A stretch of 64,000 nucleotides of DNA from Janibacter terrae NBRC 107853 (GTDB lineage Bacteria; Actinomycetota; Actinomycetes; Actinomycetales; Dermatophilaceae), in contig NZ_BCUV01000010.1 of NCBI RefSeq assembly GCF_001591405.1, forward strand, positions 62,001-126,000, given 5' to 3'. The notes under the pieces are model-generated. The model was not told where the DNA came from. It did not search any database and worked only from the letters and a program-made list of their open reading frames with translations. Numbering within the stretch: position 1 is the first letter of the stretch; every line of letters starts with the position of its first letter. Made by a program: the position numbers and the translations under genes. Positions 1 to 16,085 of the stretch are shown here, piece by piece.

Positions 1-1
1 G

Positions 2-370
2 ACCTATCCGCTGACCCGCACGACCAAGGTAAGGATCAACCTGTCCATGAGGGTGCTCAACGCCATCCCGGACGCTCACGAGGAGCCCACGCCCATCGCA
101 GCCGACGACCTTGGACCGAGGATTGCCGACGACGCACCCGTGAGCGCGACCTGCGAGGCCGCTCGCCTCCTTCTCTGGGCGCTCGATCACGACGTCATCT
201 CCCAGGACGAAGGGGCGCTGCTCTACCGCGCGACGCTCGACGCCAGCGCCTCGATCAACGCCGCTCTCACGGAGATCGCTGCCGAAGAGGGAGTGACCAG
301 CCGTGCCATGCACGGTCGGTACTCCCGCGTGGTCGAGAAGATCACCGCGGCCGTTCTCGAGACGACCTGA
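2..370 (+). CDS. C-terminal part of an unknown protein, 5' end outside the window
   Basis: The frame is open from the first complete codon of the window, so this is the 3' end of a longer gene; the first internal ATG is at 47. The visible 122 residues are acidic at first and then become helical. The last 40 or so (EEGVTSRAMHGRYSRVV region) look like a helix-turn-helix of the type that ends sigma-factor-like or integrase-like DNA-binding proteins, but I cannot assign a family. The gene stops 46 bp before the 12-bp repeat array in front of parA, so it belongs to the same backbone. Function unknown. Confidence 0.6.
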   Translation, partial: TYPLTRTTKVRINLSMRVLNAIPDAHEEPTPIAADDLGPRIADDAPVSATCEAARLLLWALDHDVISQDEGALLYRATLDASASINAALTEIAAEEGVTSRAMHGRYSRVVEKITAAVLETT

Positions 371-416: not shown

Positions 417-649
417 CATATGTCACCGCATATGTGTGCTCATATGCTTCCGTCTATGCCGCTTCGTATGTGTCCCCAGATGTGCCCCCCTATGCGCGTG
501 CATCTGTGAGGTCATATGGCGCGGCATATGTGGCCCTTCTGCGTCTTCGTCTGCTTGCTCATATGCTTCCCCACCTGTTGCTGCGTCTGTTTATGCATAT
601 GCCGCCGCATATGTGTCCTCATCTGCATCTTCTGATGTACCGTCATCTG
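417..649. repeat. Array of 20 units with 12-bp period (CATATG core), candidate centromere of the parA locus
   Basis: Twenty hexamers of consensus CATATG / CATCTG start at 417, 429, 441, 453, 465, 477, 489, 501, 513, 525, 536, 548, 560, 572, 584, 596, 608, 620, 632 and 644. Every step is exactly 12 bp except one 11-bp step (525 to 536). Eight units are perfect CATATG, three are CATCTG, and all twenty end in TG. The six bases between cores vary and are pyrimidine-rich. No convincing gene covers the array. Its place directly upstream of parA is that expected for a type Ib partition site or operator, where a small partner protein binds iterated boxes. That role is inference; the periodicity is seen directly. 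Confidence 0.85.
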
Positions 650-719
650 CGTGCCCGGTTTACTTCCGATGGCGGCCTTGGATAAGCCGCCGATTGGGCA
701 CCGGAGGGATGGGATCGAG

Positions 720-1382
720 ATGCCTGAGCCACAGCTCATCGTCGTCGCGGGTCAGAAGGGTGGGCCGGGGAAGTCGACGACCACAATCAACCTTGCGGCC
801 TGCTTCGCAGCGGAGGGGGAGCGCGTCCTAGTCGTCGACATCGACCCCCAAGGCAGCGCGGTCGGGTGGGCGGAGACGGCCGGAGACGCACTGCCCTTCG
901 ACTTCGCCGCCAGCGACGACCCCGGGCTGCTGTCATCCCTGAAGCAGGTCGACTACGACTACGTCCTCGTCGACACCCCCGGCTCGCTCGTCGAGGTCGA
1001 GAAGAACCAGGCCCTGATCCCGATCGCCGACTTCGTGGTCATCCCCTCGCTGGGGGACCCGCTGGGCATGGAGCCGCTGGCCCGTACCGTCCATCAGGTC
1101 CTCACACCGACAGGTGTCCCTTTCCGGGTGCTGCTCAACAACGTCTCCGACCGTCGGGGACCGGCCTGGCCGATCACCACGATCCACACGCTCGCCGCCG
1201 CCGGCCTCCCGTGCTTCCGGACCTACATCCGCTCCTACGTCACGCTGACCGACGCGCCCGGCACCGGGGCGGTGGTCACGCAGCTGACCGACGAGCCCGG
1301 CAAGAAGAGCGCCCGGCTCTACAAGCAGGTCGCCCAGGAGATCCGCGACATCCTCGCGGCCAACGACGGCGGCACGCGATGA
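720..1382 (+). CDS. parA: ParA-family partition ATPase (short, type Ib-like)
   Basis: A 220-aa ATPase with the deviant Walker A motif KGGPGKST near residues 11-18, the family [10 protein letters not shown] box near residues 40-50, and the switch-like VLVDTPGS motif. There is no N-terminal HTH, as in small type Ib ParA proteins, so DNA recognition should lie in the partner and the adjacent repeats. I chose ATG at 720 because GGAGGG (703-708) sits 11 nt upstream; the GTG at 651 would add a 23-residue leader running out of the repeat array. The stop overlaps the next start (ATGA), so the two are translationally coupled. Expected role: plasmid segregation on the nucleoid. Confidence 0.93.
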
Positions 1383-1975
1383 GCCGCCAGCAGAACCTGG
1401 CCAACCTCCTGGCCCGCGGCACAGCCAACGCCGCGCAGGCCGGCCCGATGGTCACCACAGACACCGAGCCCGCCACCAAGCCCACCCAGGCGACGCCCCG
1501 GAAGGCCCCGAAGAAGGCCGCGCCCAAGCCGGACAAGACCTCTCCGAAGACGAGTGTGGACGACGTCGCGGACGGGCCCATGGTGCGCGCCGCCAGCCTG
1601 ATCCCCGCCGACCTGCACAAGGAGATCTCTGAGCGGGCCGACGGCACCTTCGGCCAGCTCATCACCTGGTCGTGCATCGACTTCCCAGATCAGATCGTCG
1701 AGGACGTGCTGACCTCGCTCGGAGCCGGAGCTCAGGTCTCCCGCGCCCCGCGCATCAACCGTGGAGCAGCACCCAAGAGCAACACGAGACAGATCGCCCC
1801 AACCTTCCTGCCCAACGAGAACGCGATCGTGCTCGACCTCCTCGAGCAGATCAAGCAGTCCGCCGCCGACGCCGGCGTCGACCCCGGCACCGCAAAGCGG
1901 ATCACCCGAACCGTCCTGCACGCCGCAGCGCTGCGGCGCTGGGCCACGGAACATCCCCAGACCACCACCGACTGA
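1379..1975 (+). CDS. ParA partner / candidate centromere-binding protein
   Basis: A 198-aa protein whose ATG overlaps the parA stop. Residues 20-65 are rich in Pro, Lys, Ala and Thr (for example [15 protein letters not shown]) and probably disordered, a common feature of ParB-type partners, whose basic N-terminus stimulates the ATPase. The rest is predicted helical, with no ParB Spo0J-type box that I can see. Position makes it the best candidate to bind the 12-bp array upstream of parA. It may instead link partition to the Tad genes that follow 22 bp later. Family assignment is from context. Confidence 0.6.
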
Positions 1976-1997: not shown

Positions 1998-2684
1998 ATG
2001 ACAGCTGCACCCGAATCCACCACGACCACCCGGCGGGGGCCGGTCGTCGACCCGGCACCGCACGTCAAGACACGGTGGAACCGGCGGCTGCTGCTGATCG
2101 GGATCCTTCTGGCGCTGCTGTGCGGGCTGGCGGCCTACTGGGCCGTCAATCGGGCCAGCACACCTCGCTCGGTAGTCGTGGTCACCAAGGACATCGCCGC
2201 CGGGGACGTCATCACCGAGGACGCCCTCGGCACCACGTTGGTGACCGGGGGAGAGAACCTGACCACGACCCCGGAAGGGCAGCTGCGCGCCCTGGTGGGG
2301 GAGCGGGCATCAGTGCCCATGCCCGCGGGCTCTCTGGCGACCAAGGCCATGACCATCCCGCGCATCTCCCCCCGCGAGGGACAAGCCATCGTCGGTGTCG
2401 CACTGTCCCCGGGGCAGTACCCCACAAGCGGTCTGCAGCGCGGCGACGCGGTGCGCCTGGTGGTCACCGGCGGCGGGCAGAGCATCAAGGAGCTGCCGCC
2501 GGGCAAGGCCTTCACCGCCACCGTCCTGGCCGTGGGCGATGTCGACAACAACGGTCGCCGCACCGTCGACCTGTCCATCGGGACCAGCGACGCCGACCTC
2601 GCCGCGGCCGCGGCCGGCACCGAGAAGGTCGCCATCGTCAACGTCCTGCCCGTCGGCCTCAGCCCCGACAACGGACAGGGGTAA
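1998..2684 (+). CDS. SAF-domain membrane protein (CpaB/FlgA-like)
   Basis: A 228-aa protein with a Pro/Thr-rich cytoplasmic start, one membrane helix at about residues 30-50, and an extracytoplasmic part that begins with the typical SAF pattern (residues about 55-115: VVVTKDIAAGDVITEDAL, then MPAGSL). CpaB-type SAF proteins are accessory parts of Tad/Flp pilus systems. The ATG at 1998 follows an AAAGGGGGA Shine-Dalgarno. It opens the secretion operon after the partition genes. Confidence 0.82.
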   Translation: MTAAPESTTTTRRGPVVDPAPHVKTRWNRRLLLIGILLALLCGLAAYWAVNRASTPRSVVVVTKDIAAGDVITEDALGTTLVTGGENLTTTPEGQLRALVGERASVPMPAGSLATKAMTIPRISPREGQAIVGVALSPGQYPTSGLQRGDAVRLVVTGGGQSIKELPPGKAFTATVLAVGDVDNNGRRTVDLSIGTSDADLAAAAAGTEKVAIVNVLPVGLSPDNGQG

Positions 2685-2688
2685 GCAC

Positions 2689-3519
2689 ATGGCACTGACA
2701 GCTCTGACCTCCATCAGCGCCTCCCCGGGCGTGACCTCCACCGCGCTGACCTGGGCGCAGGTCTCCAAGAAGCCAACCCTGCTCGTCGAGGCAGACCCCA
2801 CCGGCGGCTCCCCGATGCTCTGCATCGCCTGGCAGGGGTCCCAGCCCCACGACCGGTCGGTGCTCGACCTGGCGCACTTCCCGGCCAGCGAGTACCCCGA
2901 CCGCATCTGGGAGCTCGCGCTGCCGCTGCCGCAGCGCCCCAAGGCGGCATGGGTGCTGCCCGCCGTGGGCTCACCGGCCCAGGCCCGCTCGATGCGTGAG
3001 CTCTGGGCCCCGGTCTGCGACGCTCTGGCCCGCATCAGCTCTGACTCCGACGTCGACGTCGTGATCGACCTCGGACGATGGAACACCGCAGGCTTCGCCG
3101 AACCTGTCCTCGCTCGAGCCAGCAGCATCCTGGTGATGACTGATACGACCCTGACCGCCCTGAACTCCCTCGCCCTCGGGCTGTCGGTGATCCGAGAGCA
3201 GCTCGAGGCCTCAGGCGGCACCCACAAGCTCGGCGTCGTTCCCGTCCTCGGACAGGAGAAGGGCACCGGGCACCGCCCCTACGGCTCCCGAGAGATCGCA
3301 CAGATCACCGACTCCGTGCCCGTCCTGCCCGGCGTGGCCCGCGACCCCAAGGCCGCAGGGGAGAGGCGGTGGACCGGTGAGAGTCAACGTGTTCGCGCCA
3401 CCGACAAGCTCCGGCCGCGCACGGCCTACCCGCTCTCGATCCAGCACCTCATCGAGGCCAACGACAAGCACGTCGCGACGGCCTCTGACTACCTCTCGAC
3501 CAGCCAGGAGACAGCATGA
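2689..3519 (+). CDS. CpaE/TadZ-like ATPase-fold protein with degenerate P-loop
   Basis: A 276-aa MinD/ParA-fold protein. The segment where a deviant Walker A should be (SISASPGVTSTAL, residues 7-19) keeps glycine and the Ser/Thr pair but lacks the signature lysines, while VEADPTGGS and DVVIDLGRW match the later ParA-fold boxes. In Tad systems the CpaE/TadZ protein localises the secretion apparatus, and degenerate P-loops are common there. The ATG lies 5 bp after the SAF gene, and the 3' end overlaps tadA by 4 bp (ATGA). An orphan chromosome-partition ATPase is less likely given these neighbours. Confidence 0.75.
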   Translation: MALTALTSISASPGVTSTALTWAQVSKKPTLLVEADPTGGSPMLCIAWQGSQPHDRSVLDLAHFPASEYPDRIWELALPLPQRPKAAWVLPAVGSPAQARSMRELWAPVCDALARISSDSDVDVVIDLGRWNTAGFAEPVLARASSILVMTDTTLTALNSLALGLSVIREQLEASGGTHKLGVVPVLGQEKGTGHRPYGSREIAQITDSVPVLPGVARDPKAAGERRWTGESQRVRATDKLRPRTAYPLSIQHLIEANDKHVATASDYLSTSQETA

Positions 3520-5093
3520 GCGAGCAGGATCAGGTCCAGTCGCCGACCTCGCTGCCGATGTTCGCCCACCGGCAGAGCCCCGCCGCCCGAGGACTGGGCG
3601 GATCCATGGCCCCTGCGCCGCAGGAGCCGGTTCACCACGAGCCCCAGCCCTCCAGGCCCGTCACCGACGGCGTCACCGCCGAGCGCGCAGACCAGATCCA
3701 CGACGCGATCCGACGGATCAGCGCGGTCGACTGGGACGACGTCGCCCGACTGCGCCTGCAGGTCAGCGGCGAGATCTCCCGACGCTTCCCCAACACACCC
3801 CTGAAGGAGGAGCAGCACCGCGAAGCCGTCTCCCTCATGGTCAACGAGGCGCTCGACGACCACGCCGACAGCCAGCTGAGCACAGGCGGGGGACGCCTCT
3901 CGGCGGAGGCGCGAGCCGAGCTGCACCGGGCGGTCATGGTCAGCCTCTTCGGCGCGGGCCGGTTCCAGCCGCTGCTCGACCTCGAGGGGCTGGAGAACTT
4001 GGAGTGCGAGGGGTGCGACAACGTCACGCTCCAGTTCGCCGACGGGCGCCTCGAGCGCGGCCCGGCGGTCGCCGACAGTGACGAGCAGCTCATCGACGAG
4101 ATCCGCTACATCGCCCGCACCGCGGTCACCGGGGAGACGGTGTTCAGCCAGCACAGGCCCTGGGTGCGCCTGGCCCTGCCCGACGGGTCACGGTTCGCCG
4201 CCGAGGCCTGGGTCTCCCGCCGCCCCTCGATCAGCATCCGCAAGCACCGCTTCGTCGACACCGACCTCGCCCAGATGCGTGACCTGGGTGCCATCGACGA
4301 GACTCTCGAGCAGTTCCTGCGCGCCGCGATCCGCGCCGGGAAGAACATCATCGTCTCCGGCGACCCCGCTGCCGGCAAGACCACCCTGGTCCGGGCGATC
4401 CTCAACGAGCTGGACCCCAACGAACGGCTCGCGACCATCGAGGCCCAGTACGAGCTGCTCATGGACCAGATGCCCCACCGGCATCACCGCGTGTGGGCTG
4501 TTGAGGCCCAGCCCGGCGGAGAGATCGGCGCTGACGGCCGCCCCGTTGGCGAGGTCACCCTGACCCGGCTCATCGAGCTCTCCCTGCAGAAGAACGTCAC
4601 CCGCATCGTCGTCGGCGAGGTTGTCGGCGACGAGGTGATGTCGATGATGGAGGCCATGCAGGGCGGGCGCGGATCCATCAGCACGATCCACGCAAGCTCG
4701 GCGCGGGACACCATCGAGCGACTGGTCACCCTGATCACCCGAGCGCGCGCCAACGTCGACCCCCTCTTCGGGTACCGGCTTGTCGCGCAGAACGTCGACC
4801 TGATCGTCCACCTCAACCTCACTGACGAGTCCGCGCTCGAAGGCGGCCGCCGCTGGCGCTTCGTCGACGACATCGTCGCCGTCGAGGTCTCCCAGGACAC
4901 CGGAGTGGCCTTCGACCAGATCTTCGCGCCTGACGAGCACGGCCGCGCCGTGCCCAGCGGCACTGTGCCGAAGTGGATCAGTGAGTTGCGCCGGCACGGG
5001 TTCGACCCGTCCCTGCTCACCGGGAGGGTCTCCTCGTGGGGCCCGCCGCCCGAGCTGCTCGTGCGCGACGACGGCGCCTGGGGCGCGGCATGA
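3516..5093 (+). CDS. tadA: TadA/CpaF-type secretion ATPase
   Basis: A 525-aa type II/IV secretion ATPase. Residues 1-60 form a variable Pro/Gln-rich leader. The N-terminal domain is followed by Walker A SGDPAAGKTTL (about residues 282-292), an Asp box with ATIEAQYELL, the Walker B region RIVVGEVVGDEV (about 365-377) and the His-box GSISTIHASSARDTIERL. The usual arginine after GEV is valine here. It powers assembly of Tad/Flp pili or a related surface secretion machine. It lies between the CpaE-like gene and tadB, overlapping both by 4 bp, which implies coupled translation. Confidence 0.93.
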   Translation: MSEQDQVQSPTSLPMFAHRQSPAARGLGGSMAPAPQEPVHHEPQPSRPVTDGVTAERADQIHDAIRRISAVDWDDVARLRLQVSGEISRRFPNTPLKEEQHREAVSLMVNEALDDHADSQLSTGGGRLSAEARAELHRAVMVSLFGAGRFQPLLDLEGLENLECEGCDNVTLQFADGRLERGPAVADSDEQLIDEIRYIARTAVTGETVFSQHRPWVRLALPDGSRFAAEAWVSRRPSISIRKHRFVDTDLAQMRDLGAIDETLEQFLRAAIRAGKNIIVSGDPAAGKTTLVRAILNELDPNERLATIEAQYELLMDQMPHRHHRVWAVEAQPGGEIGADGRPVGEVTLTRLIELSLQKNVTRIVVGEVVGDEVMSMMEAMQGGRGSISTIHASSARDTIERLVTLITRARANVDPLFGYRLVAQNVDLIVHLNLTDESALEGGRRWRFVDDIVAVEVSQDTGVAFDQIFAPDEHGRAVPSGTVPKWISELRRHGFDPSLLTGRVSSWGPPPELLVRDDGAWGAA

Positions 5094-13913: not shown

Positions 13914-16085
13914 ATGCTAGCACCGAGGGCGATGTCGTCATACCCAAATGCGGGTATCGACACGCCGACTTTTGACCCTGCTCCACCCGCGCTTCAGCCC
14001 CTTGATTCTGGGGTTTGGGTGCCCCGTCTGCTGCGTGACGCGATCACGGATCCGGCACGTCTGGCGGACCTGGTGGTCCTCTACTCGTGGTCCAACGACG
14101 GTGACGTGATCGCGCGTCAGAGCGCGATCATGACGGCCCTGGGACGCCCCGGGGCCCGCCCGGACGCGCTGGGCGCGCGGCTGCGCGCGGCCGAGGACGC
14201 TGGGTGGATCGTGCGTCGCCGCACGCGCCGAGGCGCCGGTGTGACCCGGTACCGGCTCGCGCACCGGCCCTGCCCGGGCAAGGTCGCTTTTGACGTCGTC
14301 CCGCACGCGATGATGCAGGCCCTGCGCGACGGTGGGATCGGCCCGGGGGAGCTGCGCACGTGGCTGTTCCTGGACCAGGCTCTTGGGTACCGGGGGTATA
14401 CCCGAGACTCCGCGGCCGAGGTCGCGGCCCGGGTCGGGGTCAGTGCCCGCACGGTGCAGCGGCACCTGACGGCACTGGTCTCGCTCGGCTTCCTCGAGCG
14501 TGAGGACACCGCCACGGGATGGGTCCTGACCCGACCGGCGAGCACCGCGGCGACGACTGCAACGCAGGTCGACGAAATCGAGGGTGAGCTCGCCGACGCG
14601 CCGCTGCAGGGGTGCGACACCAACGCGGGGTCCTGCGACACCAACGCGGGGTCCATGTATCTAGCCCCCGATTCTCTAACCCCCGAGATCTCCCCCTCCT
14701 CACGTAGTGCTCGTCACCTAGGTAAGAACGCGACGCGCGCGACGAGCGGCCGCAAGCGGCCGAGCGGAGGGATCTACCAGGTCGACGGTGTCAGAGAGGT
14801 CGCGGACCTACTGGCTCAGGATCGGGCGTGGAGGTGGGGTGCTCGGCGGAAGTGGCTCAACGGGATCCTCGCCAAGGCCGTCGCCCCGGCGCTGCAGCGG
14901 GGCTTGACCCCCGAGGCGATCGCCATGGTCCTCACCGAGAGCGCGGCCGGGGAGCTCGACGACGCGGCCGAGCTGCTTCAGTCCCTCATCCCGGCCGCGC
15001 AGTCCGCCTTGAGCGCCTTGGCGATCGACACCCGCCTGGGCCAGGCCTGCCAGGACTGCGGCCGCCGTGAGGCCGATGCCGGCGGCGAGATCCGCGACCG
15101 GCTGTGCCCGTGGTGCCACGAGCAGCGCATCGGCATCGAGGAGATCCCCGCCGAGATCCTCGCCCAGATCCAGGCGCACCTGACCGCCCCGACCACCACC
15201 ACGCAAAGCACCGACACGACGGCACAGGAGGTGCCCGAGATGACCAGCACACCCACGACCACGACCACGACACCGGCTCAGGCGACCCACGAGCAGCGTC
15301 GCGCGCGTGACCGGGCCCGCCGCTCGAGGTACGCCAAGAGGCGCCGGCTGCGGCTGCTCGAGGGCACCTGGGAAAGCACCTTGGTCCCCGCCGGCCCCGC
15401 CCGTACGAGAGTCCTCGAGCTCCACCAGCAGGGGTGGTCCCTCGCGGCCCTGGAGGCCATGATCGGGGAGTCTCAGGGTCACCTGTCGAACCTGGTCTAC
15501 GAGGGGCACTCCGATGCCCGACGGTGGGTCACCCGCGAGCGCGAGGCGCGGATCCTGGACCTCGAGCCGACCTTGGACCTGGTCCCCGACGGGTGCCACG
15601 TCCCCGGTCTTGGGACACGGCGCCGTGTGCAGGCCCTCTCGGCGATCGGGTGGTCTCTGCAGGAGGTCGCTGACCTGGCCGGGGTGAGCAAGCAGGCCCT
15701 CGCCGGCAGCCTGCGCGCGCACCGGGTTACCGCCCGGGTCGCCCGGACCATCCGGGGGATCTACCTCGAGCTGGAGAGCACCCCCGGGCCCTCGGAGCGG
15801 ACCCGCCGGCACGCCGCCACGAAGGGGTGGCCACCGCCTGCCGCGTGGGACGACGTCGACGACCCGAGGGAGGACGCCGAGCACACCGCCCAGGCCCCGA
15901 CACACGGGAGCCGGCTCAGCGTCGACTCCCTGACCGACTGCGCCTCGTGGGGAATGACCCGCGAGCAGGCCGCGCATCGTCTCGGAGTGCGGCCCGGCTC
16001 GATCGACCGGTGGCTCAACCGCCACGAGGCGCCGGGGCTGCGCGCTCGGTTCGCCCGCAACGAGGCCGCGACGACTGCCGCATGA
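13914..16085 (+). CDS. Large multi-HTH protein, candidate replication initiator
   Basis: A 723-aa basic protein. A winged-HTH lies near residues 162-196 (SAAEVAARVGVSARTVQRHL). A zinc ribbon lies near 379-404 (CQDCGRR ... CPWCHEQ). A Thr-rich linker (about 425-450) leads to a Lys/Arg-rich segment and further HTH-like stretches (GWSLQEVADLAGVSKQAL; MTREQAAHRLGVRPGSIDRW). The first half resembles actinobacterial plasmid replication proteins with a helix-turn-helix. ATG 13914 follows GGAAAGG; ATG 13932 is possible. An internal ATG at 15240 has a strong site of its own and may yield a second product. The replication role is inferred from architecture and context. Confidence 0.65.
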   Translation: MLAPRAMSSYPNAGIDTPTFDPAPPALQPLDSGVWVPRLLRDAITDPARLADLVVLYSWSNDGDVIARQSAIMTALGRPGARPDALGARLRAAEDAGWIVRRRTRRGAGVTRYRLAHRPCPGKVAFDVVPHAMMQALRDGGIGPGELRTWLFLDQALGYRGYTRDSAAEVAARVGVSARTVQRHLTALVSLGFLEREDTATGWVLTRPASTAATTATQVDEIEGELADAPLQGCDTNAGSCDTNAGSMYLAPDSLTPEISPSSRSARHLGKNATRATSGRKRPSGGIYQVDGVREVADLLAQDRAWRWGARRKWLNGILAKAVAPALQRGLTPEAIAMVLTESAAGELDDAAELLQSLIPAAQSALSALAIDTRLGQACQDCGRREADAGGEIRDRLCPWCHEQRIGIEEIPAEILAQIQAHLTAPTTTTQSTDTTAQEVPEMTSTPTTTTTTPAQATHEQRRARDRARRSRYAKRRRLRLLEGTWESTLVPAGPARTRVLELHQQGWSLAALEAMIGESQGHLSNLVYEGHSDARRWVTREREARILDLEPTLDLVPDGCHVPGLGTRRRVQALSAIGWSLQEVADLAGVSKQALAGSLRAHRVTARVARTIRGIYLELESTPGPSERTRRHAATKGWPPPAAWDDVDDPREDAEHTAQAPTHGSRLSVDSLTDCASWGMTREQAAHRLGVRPGSIDRWLNRHEAPGLRARFARNEAATTAA
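14613..14654 (+). repeat. Perfect tandem duplication of 21 bp inside the replication-type gene
   Basis: Units 14613-14633 and 14634-14654 are identical and keep the frame, giving CDTNAGS twice. They lie between the winged-HTH and the zinc ribbon. They could be a recent slippage event or paired binding sites. Confidence 0.85.
15240..16085 (+). CDS. Possible nested product: C-terminal HTH protein from an internal start
   Basis: ATG 15240 is in frame with the 13914 gene and is preceded by AGGAGG at 15226-15231, an ideal Shine-Dalgarno 8 nt away. The 281-residue product would start in the Thr-rich linker and contain the basic RRARDRARRSRYAKRRR stretch and the two C-terminal HTH motifs. A full-length initiator plus a short DNA-binding repressor form is a known plasmid strategy. 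It remains inference here. Confidence 0.4.
   Translation: MTSTPTTTTTTPAQATHEQRRARDRARRSRYAKRRRLRLLEGTWESTLVPAGPARTRVLELHQQGWSLAALEAMIGESQGHLSNLVYEGHSDARRWVTREREARILDLEPTLDLVPDGCHVPGLGTRRRVQALSAIGWSLQEVADLAGVSKQALAGSLRAHRVTARVARTIRGIYLELESTPGPSERTRRHAATKGWPPPAAWDDVDDPREDAEHTAQAPTHGSRLSVDSLTDCASWGMTREQAAHRLGVRPGSIDRWLNRHEAPGLRARFARNEAATTAA

Follow-up and report, generated by a model that had tools for sequence, protein, structure and literature searches.

The locus described here raises a simple question: what does an array of twenty short boxes, phased at 12 bp and lying directly upstream of a parA gene, do for the replicon that carries it? The window (the whole 64,000-nucleotide stretch of Janibacter terrae DNA that was analyzed) belongs to a contig of 132,461 bp that ends without overlap and is regarded as a plasmid because of its gene content. 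We are fairly confident that the array is the centromere (parS) and also the operator of a type-I (ParA) partition operon, which is organized as follows.

1..370, + strand: 3' part of the upstream gene (239 aa, starting 350 bases before the window), sigma-factor-like by weak scores only
417..655, + strand: array of 20 units, consensus CATATG-Y-NNCCN, with an invariant [AC]TG core; proposed centromere (parS) and parAB operator
525..535, + strand: sole unit of 11 bp, from box 10 to box 11; in view of scattered ±1 steps in relatives, probably an indel and not a conserved divider
656..719, + strand: 64-bp spacer between array and parA; the three elements on the next lines were read from its sequence
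659-664 (TTTACT), 16 bp, and 681-686 (GATAAG), + strand: weak promoter candidate
671-676 and 686-691, between array and parA: GGCGGC/GCCGCC inverted repeat
703-713, + strand: purine-rich putative ribosome-binding stretch
720..1382, + strand: parA, Walker-type partition ATPase, 220 aa (Pfam AAA_31, 1.3e-20; CbiA, 1.8e-16)
1379..1975, + strand: parB, 198 aa, overlapping parA by 4 bp; proposed array-binding adaptor
1998..2684, + strand: SAF-domain protein (PF08666, 1.6e-6; 33% to the SAF protein of locus L008)
2689..3519, + strand: 276-aa protein without a Pfam match, in the position of the relatives' 'hypothetical protein'
3516..5093, + strand: CpaF/VirB11-type secretion ATPase (PF00437, 1.9e-22)

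The first ten boxes start at 417 to 525 in 12-bp steps, an 11-bp step leads to 536, and ten more start at 536 to 644; the twenty units, the 12-bp phase, the single 11-bp step, and the coordinates given in the earlier note are all confirmed and stand far above the null models described below. The TG noted for every unit is present at box positions 5 and 6 in 20 of 20, with A or C at position 4 in all 20 and a pyrimidine at position 7 in 19. Column counts over the 20 units are C 19 at position 1, A 13 at 2, T 17 at 3, A 13 and C 7 at 4, T 20 at 5, G 20 at 6, C or T 19 at 7, and C 14 at 10, with the right half-box ([AC]TG) stricter than the left. The proposed CATATG core thus holds as a consensus but not as a strict repeat, as the exact hexamer is found in 8 of the 20 boxes (and CAnnTG in 13), and Tandem Repeats Finder does not report the array even at a score of 40. 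Eight of the nine exact CATATG hexamers in the 64-kb window nevertheless lie inside the array, which has a GC content of 53% versus 68% for the window. The 11-bp step had also been suggested to divide two sub-arrays of ten, but isolated ±1 steps are scattered through the arrays of relatives (13, 11, and 13 bp in pRHL1, three 13-bp steps in pRWAY01), resembling indel drift and giving no support to two sub-arrays as a conserved design.

The periodicity was compared with several controls. In-phase TG reaches 10/10 in the array, versus a best run of 7/10 in 100 first-order Markov sequences of 64 kb, and the period-12 motif-array fit of a 349-bp region scores 211 versus a mean of 47 (sd 6; 6 Markov resamples). 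Over a 600-bp region the fit scores 218 versus an own-null maximum of 58, the null for each region consisting of 6 or 8 first-order Markov resamples per period, and the second-best period is 11, with a score of 160. Chance or coding periodicity in GC-rich DNA can be dismissed for practical purposes: random 600-bp window segments, presumably mostly coding, do reach 178 at period 12 (the maximum over 200), and open frames at 434-685 and 436-831 traverse the array, but the period-12 minus period-9 score is 132 versus at most 30 in 200 such segments, and because of this difference, and because the 11-bp step breaks the reading frame inside the array, coding periodicity fails to explain it. A chance or coding origin is refuted by the Markov, segment, and period-9 controls together.

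The array is placed in the manner of ParA-associated centromeres, directly before parA-parB, as the earlier note had it, and the product of the gene at 1379-1975 would be its natural binder. ParA is of type Ib size (about 200-220 aa) and without an N-terminal DNA-binding domain; its P-loop spans residues 11-19 of the translation, its best plasmid match is 47% identical, and it scores 106.5 bits against NCBIfam ParA_partition, under the curated cutoff of 180. It is directly followed by a small adaptor gene without a ParB_N/HTH domain and preceded by repeats that make up the putative centromere, both further traits of type Ib systems. The N-terminal CTPase and HTH domain of canonical HTH-ParB/parS systems (CTP clamps) are absent from the window ParB by Pfam, and the motor beside the array is a ParA and not that of a TubZRC or ParMRC system.

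Upstream, the gene ending at 370 touches NCBIfam RpoE_Sigma70 below cutoff (E 0.055) and has no Pfam match. A consensus scan of the spacer between array and parA finds no sigma-70-type promoter. The motif TTGGATA is located 5 bases before the parA start in four of the compared loci (L007, L009, L011, and L012) and 35 bases before it in the window (678-684), and may serve a leaderless or short-leader transcript as a -10-like element. Further out, T4SS-like genes (an FtsK-like protein, an M23 peptidase, and an AAA_10 ATPase) lie to the left of the array, and Tad/CpaF genes lie to the right, in the window and in its relatives. On both sides of the window the contig also codes for two 420-aa ORFs with identical first 60 residues (C10 4749-6011 and 8576-9838) and a second pair of ORFs sharing a start (C10 83027-83512 and 86214-87620), suggesting insertion sequences, and several of its ORFs resemble aromatic-degradation genes as judged from their N-termini.

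The ParB proteins of related actinobacterial loci were assigned to three classes, I to III, with profiles built partly from the same loci. The class II gene order (parA-parB-SAF-unknown-CpaF ATPase) is present in the window, and parA-parB-SAF-unknown-ATPase is common to the Microbacterium plasmids NZ_CP012698 and NZ_CP064874, Arthrobacter pAL1, and Curtobacterium pC1c, as well as to Microbacterium No. 7 plasmid B, Xylanimonas pXCEL01, and Cellulosimicrobium pCPRO01; a SAF gene is at the same place in L008, L010, L306-L308, and L349-L351. Six of seven plasmids with this gene order have a phased 11-bp array before parA. The fitted 11-bp units number 45 in L008, 50 in L010, 32 in L308, 23 in L306, 42 in L350, and 44 in L351, the last two scoring 134 and 164 versus own-null maxima of 71 and 74; L307 has mixed 11- and 12-bp steps, with 12 the best period (135 versus 96). 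The cores are GCGC-like in L008, L010, L027, and L308. Gene order alone does not define class II, because L349 and L024 combine it with a class I ParB; they have no array in the 600 bp before parA, and their centromere may be located elsewhere.

Absence of the array upstream of close parA homologues had been named in the earlier note as grounds for abandoning its reading. The CATATG sequence is indeed absent there, but the feature is not: the nearest array-bearing parA relatives (47% and 44% identity) have an array in the same place, with a GCGC-like core and an 11-bp period. Phased arrays are found before other plasmid parA genes as well. Of 297 genomes of the order, only that of the window has three exact in-phase CATATG boxes. 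Comparison of the array with plasmids by blastn gives only four weak Staphylococcus records (E 0.2-0.8). Viral contigs contain at least 120 stretches with the CATATG-box pattern, the longest in-phase run among the matches listed being 12 boxes (up to 2 mismatches per box) in two contigs of 36% and 45% GC. They also contain 76 loci with ParA matches; the window ParA alone has no match in them, and a viral scan with class III ParB finds no relative. The array type recurs widely, and the exact CATATG boxes and the window ParB are unmatched in the searches, apart from the viral-contig pattern matches.

When as much as 600 bp before parA is scanned in one and the same way at 73 loci including the window, the period is found to be related to the class of ParB. 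Among 34 class I loci, 21 have an array at 8 bp and 2 at 14 bp (2 x 7; lag 7), all exceeding both their own null and the segment controls, and in 11 none is detected in the 600 bp. Class II is nearly uniform, with 10 of 11 loci at 11 bp and one at 12 bp, and arrays of up to 50 units; 8 of 9 in the first scan are at 11 bp above both thresholds, and L307, at 12 bp, exceeds only its own null. L350 and L351, which together with L349 were scored after the 73-locus scan, raise the count from 8/9 to 10/11. By a coding-corrected test, 13 of 15 class III loci have a 12-bp array, to which 10 to 48 units were fitted. The correction, period-12 minus period-9 (control maximum 30 in 200 segments), is applied as coding sequence raises scores at period 12 (to a maximum of 161 in 60 control segments); only 3 of the 15 loci have a raw period-12 score above this maximum. 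The corrected score is 38 to 131 in the 13 loci that pass, and L311 (1) and L318 (26) fail, with no array found in their 600 bp. The corrected score does not separate 12 from 11, as the 11-bp locus L008 has 52. In the raw scan, 12 is the best-scoring period in 12 of the 15 class III loci; L314 scores 117 at 12 versus 102 at 11, and the best period of L020 is 13 in one run and 12 in another. The window itself has period 12, within the 11-12 bp of the two-domain families. Fourteen other loci have no class, of which two pass both thresholds: L063 (8 bp), where the contig ends before ParB, and L054 (11 bp), which scores 102 versus an own-null maximum of 64 and has a ParB of HTH type by reading. 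A further observation concerns the class I arrays of L009 (about 2190-2390) and L011 (about 2190-2320), which contain near-perfect 16-bp/8-bp repeats. At lag 8 or 16 their windowed identity is 0.97-1.0, as if centromere units had expanded recently.

These counts include near-identical loci that were left unmerged (L010/L034/L037/L040; L008/L027; L016/L043; L055/L057; L017/L042/L044), and class II represents about seven distinct lineages by reading. The scored set includes 39 genome-contig loci (L025-L063) of at least 80, the other 41 being mostly non-actinobacterial by title and weaker matches, and 4 of 21 class III loci from genome searches; of the others, 16 have no ParA P-loop frame in the piece and L322 has less than 250 bp upstream. 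Among plasmid records with a ParB-query match, 16 of 44 regions were examined (13 + 3), and the minus-strand matches L022 and L023 were left out. The position of arrays before parA is not independent evidence, because the loci were chosen by parA or parB. The match of period with class is a computational result, as are the array, its place, and its recurrence before related parA genes, and it suggests that ParB class and array period go together, at 7-8 bp for short ParBs read as having a single ribbon-helix-helix (RHH) motif and 11-12 bp for two-RHH ParBs.

The fold of the adaptors suggests how such a match could arise. Homology between classes II and III extends through both domains (hhalign 97.5%, E 7.6e-12); the first of the two in class II can also be aligned with the class I domain (67.5%, E 5e-5; but 9.7% when run in reverse). 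An AlphaFold model of class II from three sequences (pLDDT 78.1, pTM 0.71) shows strand-helix-helix twice, thus predicting two RHH motifs per chain. Its top Foldseek matches, 102-120 residues long, are chains of the F relaxosome (best E 0.053, probability 0.99), although all E values are above 0.05 and AvtR (5.1) and DndE (9.0) are at noise level; the relaxosome chains matched, E-G, are presumably TraY. Both TraY and DndE, to which the class II model is weakly similar, are two-RHH proteins in which a single chain takes the place of an RHH dimer, and TraY binds DNA as a monomer (PMC10853773); the two act in conjugation and DNA modification, however, and not in partition. In class III, four of eight members give a weak match to Pfam RHH_1 (best E 0.0046), and class I, as read from its sequence, is likely built with a single RHH; the class I member tested has no Pfam and no PDB match. 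PDB sequence searches give no RHH match for the window ParB, class II, one class I ParB, or class III, and in PHROGs the ParBs match nothing better than E 0.13.

The window ParB has no Pfam match at E up to 10, no NCBIfam match, and no homologues in plasmids or viral contigs; across 375 other genomes of the order, its matches score no more than 17.6-19.2 bits. Its N-terminus (an 11-residue stretch) resembles that of class I and II ParBs, sharing M[AS]R..L..LL with most class I and some class II members. With a 25-sequence set, its profile E values are 0.0014 (class I), 0.055 (class II), and 1.3 (class III), the better stretches being confined to residues 1-71, the N-terminal tail, with the rest at noise level; hhalign gives 0.9% versus class II and 0.7% versus class III, and a separate hhalign run gives 1.1%. 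The DNA-binding part matches no class I, II, or III profile. Its AlphaFold model (pLDDT 43.7) has two C-terminal helices at low confidence (147-165 and 169-191), and two putative RHH-like stretches were read by eye, at about 68-110 and 136-191. The window ParB may be a two-RHH protein as well.

In the model that we propose, each protein module of the parB product would occupy one 12-bp unit, and the protein would cover the array in a static nucleoprotein filament. The N-terminal tail of ParB would contact ParA-ATP on the nucleoid and stimulate hydrolysis, such that plasmid copies are moved apart, and binding beside the parA promoter would repress the parAB operon. The unit length would be set by the adaptor, as a dimer of single-RHH chains would cover 7-8 bp and a two-RHH chain, acting as a built-in dimer like F TraY, would cover 11-12 bp, about one helical turn, with one chain per unit. 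Adaptors would be presented on slowly rotating faces, by about 51 degrees per 12-bp step and 17 per 11-bp step, assuming 10.5 bp per turn. For the single-RHH omega protein, one dimer binds one 7-bp repeat and at least four contiguous repeats are needed to activate ParA, and in pSM19035 the RHH-type arrays overlap promoters (PMC9499535).

Three other functional readings merit consideration. The array could be a replication origin, with iterons bound by Rep and packed beside parAB as part of the plasmid backbone, but this is unlikely. Repeats before parAB in Deinococcus radiodurans are both origin and parS-like site (PMC7671480), origins of mycobacterial prophages are within ~600 bp before parA (PMC7157519), and a 723-aa ORF of the window (13914-16085) with several helix-turn-helix matches is a Rep candidate; but this ORF is about 13 kb from the array, neither it nor any of 8 other contig ORFs tested matches a named Rep family, and the array period goes with ParB class. 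It is more doubtful still that the array is a transcription operator only, for parAB or the upstream gene, without centromere function: it ends 64 bp before parA and type Ib adaptors double as repressors (PMC5016525), yet 20 sites, and up to 50 in relatives, would exceed what an operator needs. It is very improbable that the array acts in conjugation, as an oriT-side or relaxosome site to which a TraY-like protein with two RHH motifs binds; the weak similarity of the class II fold to F relaxosome chains and the position of the operon between two secretion-type clusters, T4SS-like and Tad/CpaF, are consistent with it, but Rhodococcus and Mycolicibacterium plasmids have like arrays ahead of parA-parB amid different neighbors, in loci selected by parA or parB.

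The type Ib systems pSM19035 delta/omega, TP228 ParF/ParG/parH, and pB171 par2 share with the window a small Walker ATPase, a small adaptor, and arrays of short repeats at the operon promoter, and their adaptors bind the array statically (PMC5016525, PMC9499535, PMC13245405). In omega, each chain carries a single RHH and the units measure 7 bp (PMC9499535), whereas the window has 12-bp units and its nearest families have two RHH per chain. Class II (Arthrobacter pAL1, Microbacterium No. 7 plasmid A, and pXCEL01) shares the gene order, the place of the array, and up to 47% ParA identity with the window, but its arrays are mostly of 11 bp with other cores, and the window ParB is not recognizably homologous in its DNA-binding part. 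Class III (pRHL1, pRWAY01, and pMYCCH.01), with loci in Rhodococcus, Mycolicibacterium, Nocardia, and others, has 12-bp arrays before parA and an adaptor of similar size with two RHH-like domains; it differs in its cores, in a ParA mostly of about 290-310 aa (228 aa in L020), and in having no SAF/CpaF gene order in the annotated regions inspected, and the window ParB is off its profile. The repeat unit of pCXC100, a plasmid of Leifsonia xyli subsp. cynodontis, is about 9 nt, shorter than the 12 bp of the window; its ParB is reportedly an RHH protein by crystal structure, and the plasmid is probably of the class I kind, with one RHH per chain. The units of R1 parC and tubC are 11-12 bp, and these ParMRC and TubZRC centromeres are thus like the window in having units near one helical turn, although their motors are other than ParA. 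ParR binds 10-bp repeats, and pCXC100, like the window, is actinobacterial and has a centromere of direct repeats only, in a type Ib system (PMC5016525). In the open-licence literature searched, we found no description of 11-12-bp arrays before actinobacterial plasmid parA or of two-RHH ParBs there; the earlier statement that described ParA centromeres differ from this one therefore stands for this literature, but not as a peculiarity of the window, since 12-bp arrays precede other plasmid parA genes.

A 2026 survey of PLSDB reports that 52.1% of plasmids have no or an unidentified partition system, and gives type-I HTH-ParB as the sole type detected above 1 Mb (PMC13245405). Class III ParB-like matches are present on six Rhodococcus plasmid records above 1 Mb, and on pRHL1, the one of these six that was examined, parA is preceded by a 12-bp array. 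Several class III loci of Rhodococcus plasmids, L310 and L316 among them, have unannotated or 'hypothetical' two-domain ParB genes after parA, together with 12-bp arrays. For Rhodococcus sp. WAY2, the genome report places a plasmid parB on pRWAY01 only and suggests dependence on other replicons (PMC7276702); besides its annotated ParB/RepB/Spo0J gene, pRWAY01 codes for a class III 'hypothetical protein' that follows a parA with a 12-bp array in front.

The broader proposal, to which we give even weight for and against, is that actinobacterial plasmids, including Rhodococcus megaplasmids above 1 Mb, have an unrecognized ParA system in which a monomeric two-RHH adaptor occupies each 11-12-bp unit of arrays of 20-50 units, with adaptor architecture setting the spacing (7-8 versus 11-12 bp); the window would be a far-diverged member at 12 bp on a backbone otherwise mostly at 11. 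If true, the period of an unfamiliar array predicts the build of its ParB. An odd repeat would thereby become a testable rule, that spacing goes with adaptor architecture, and a handle on unannotated ParBs, and a tandem adaptor would offer a simple system for how ParA reads a regularly phased array.
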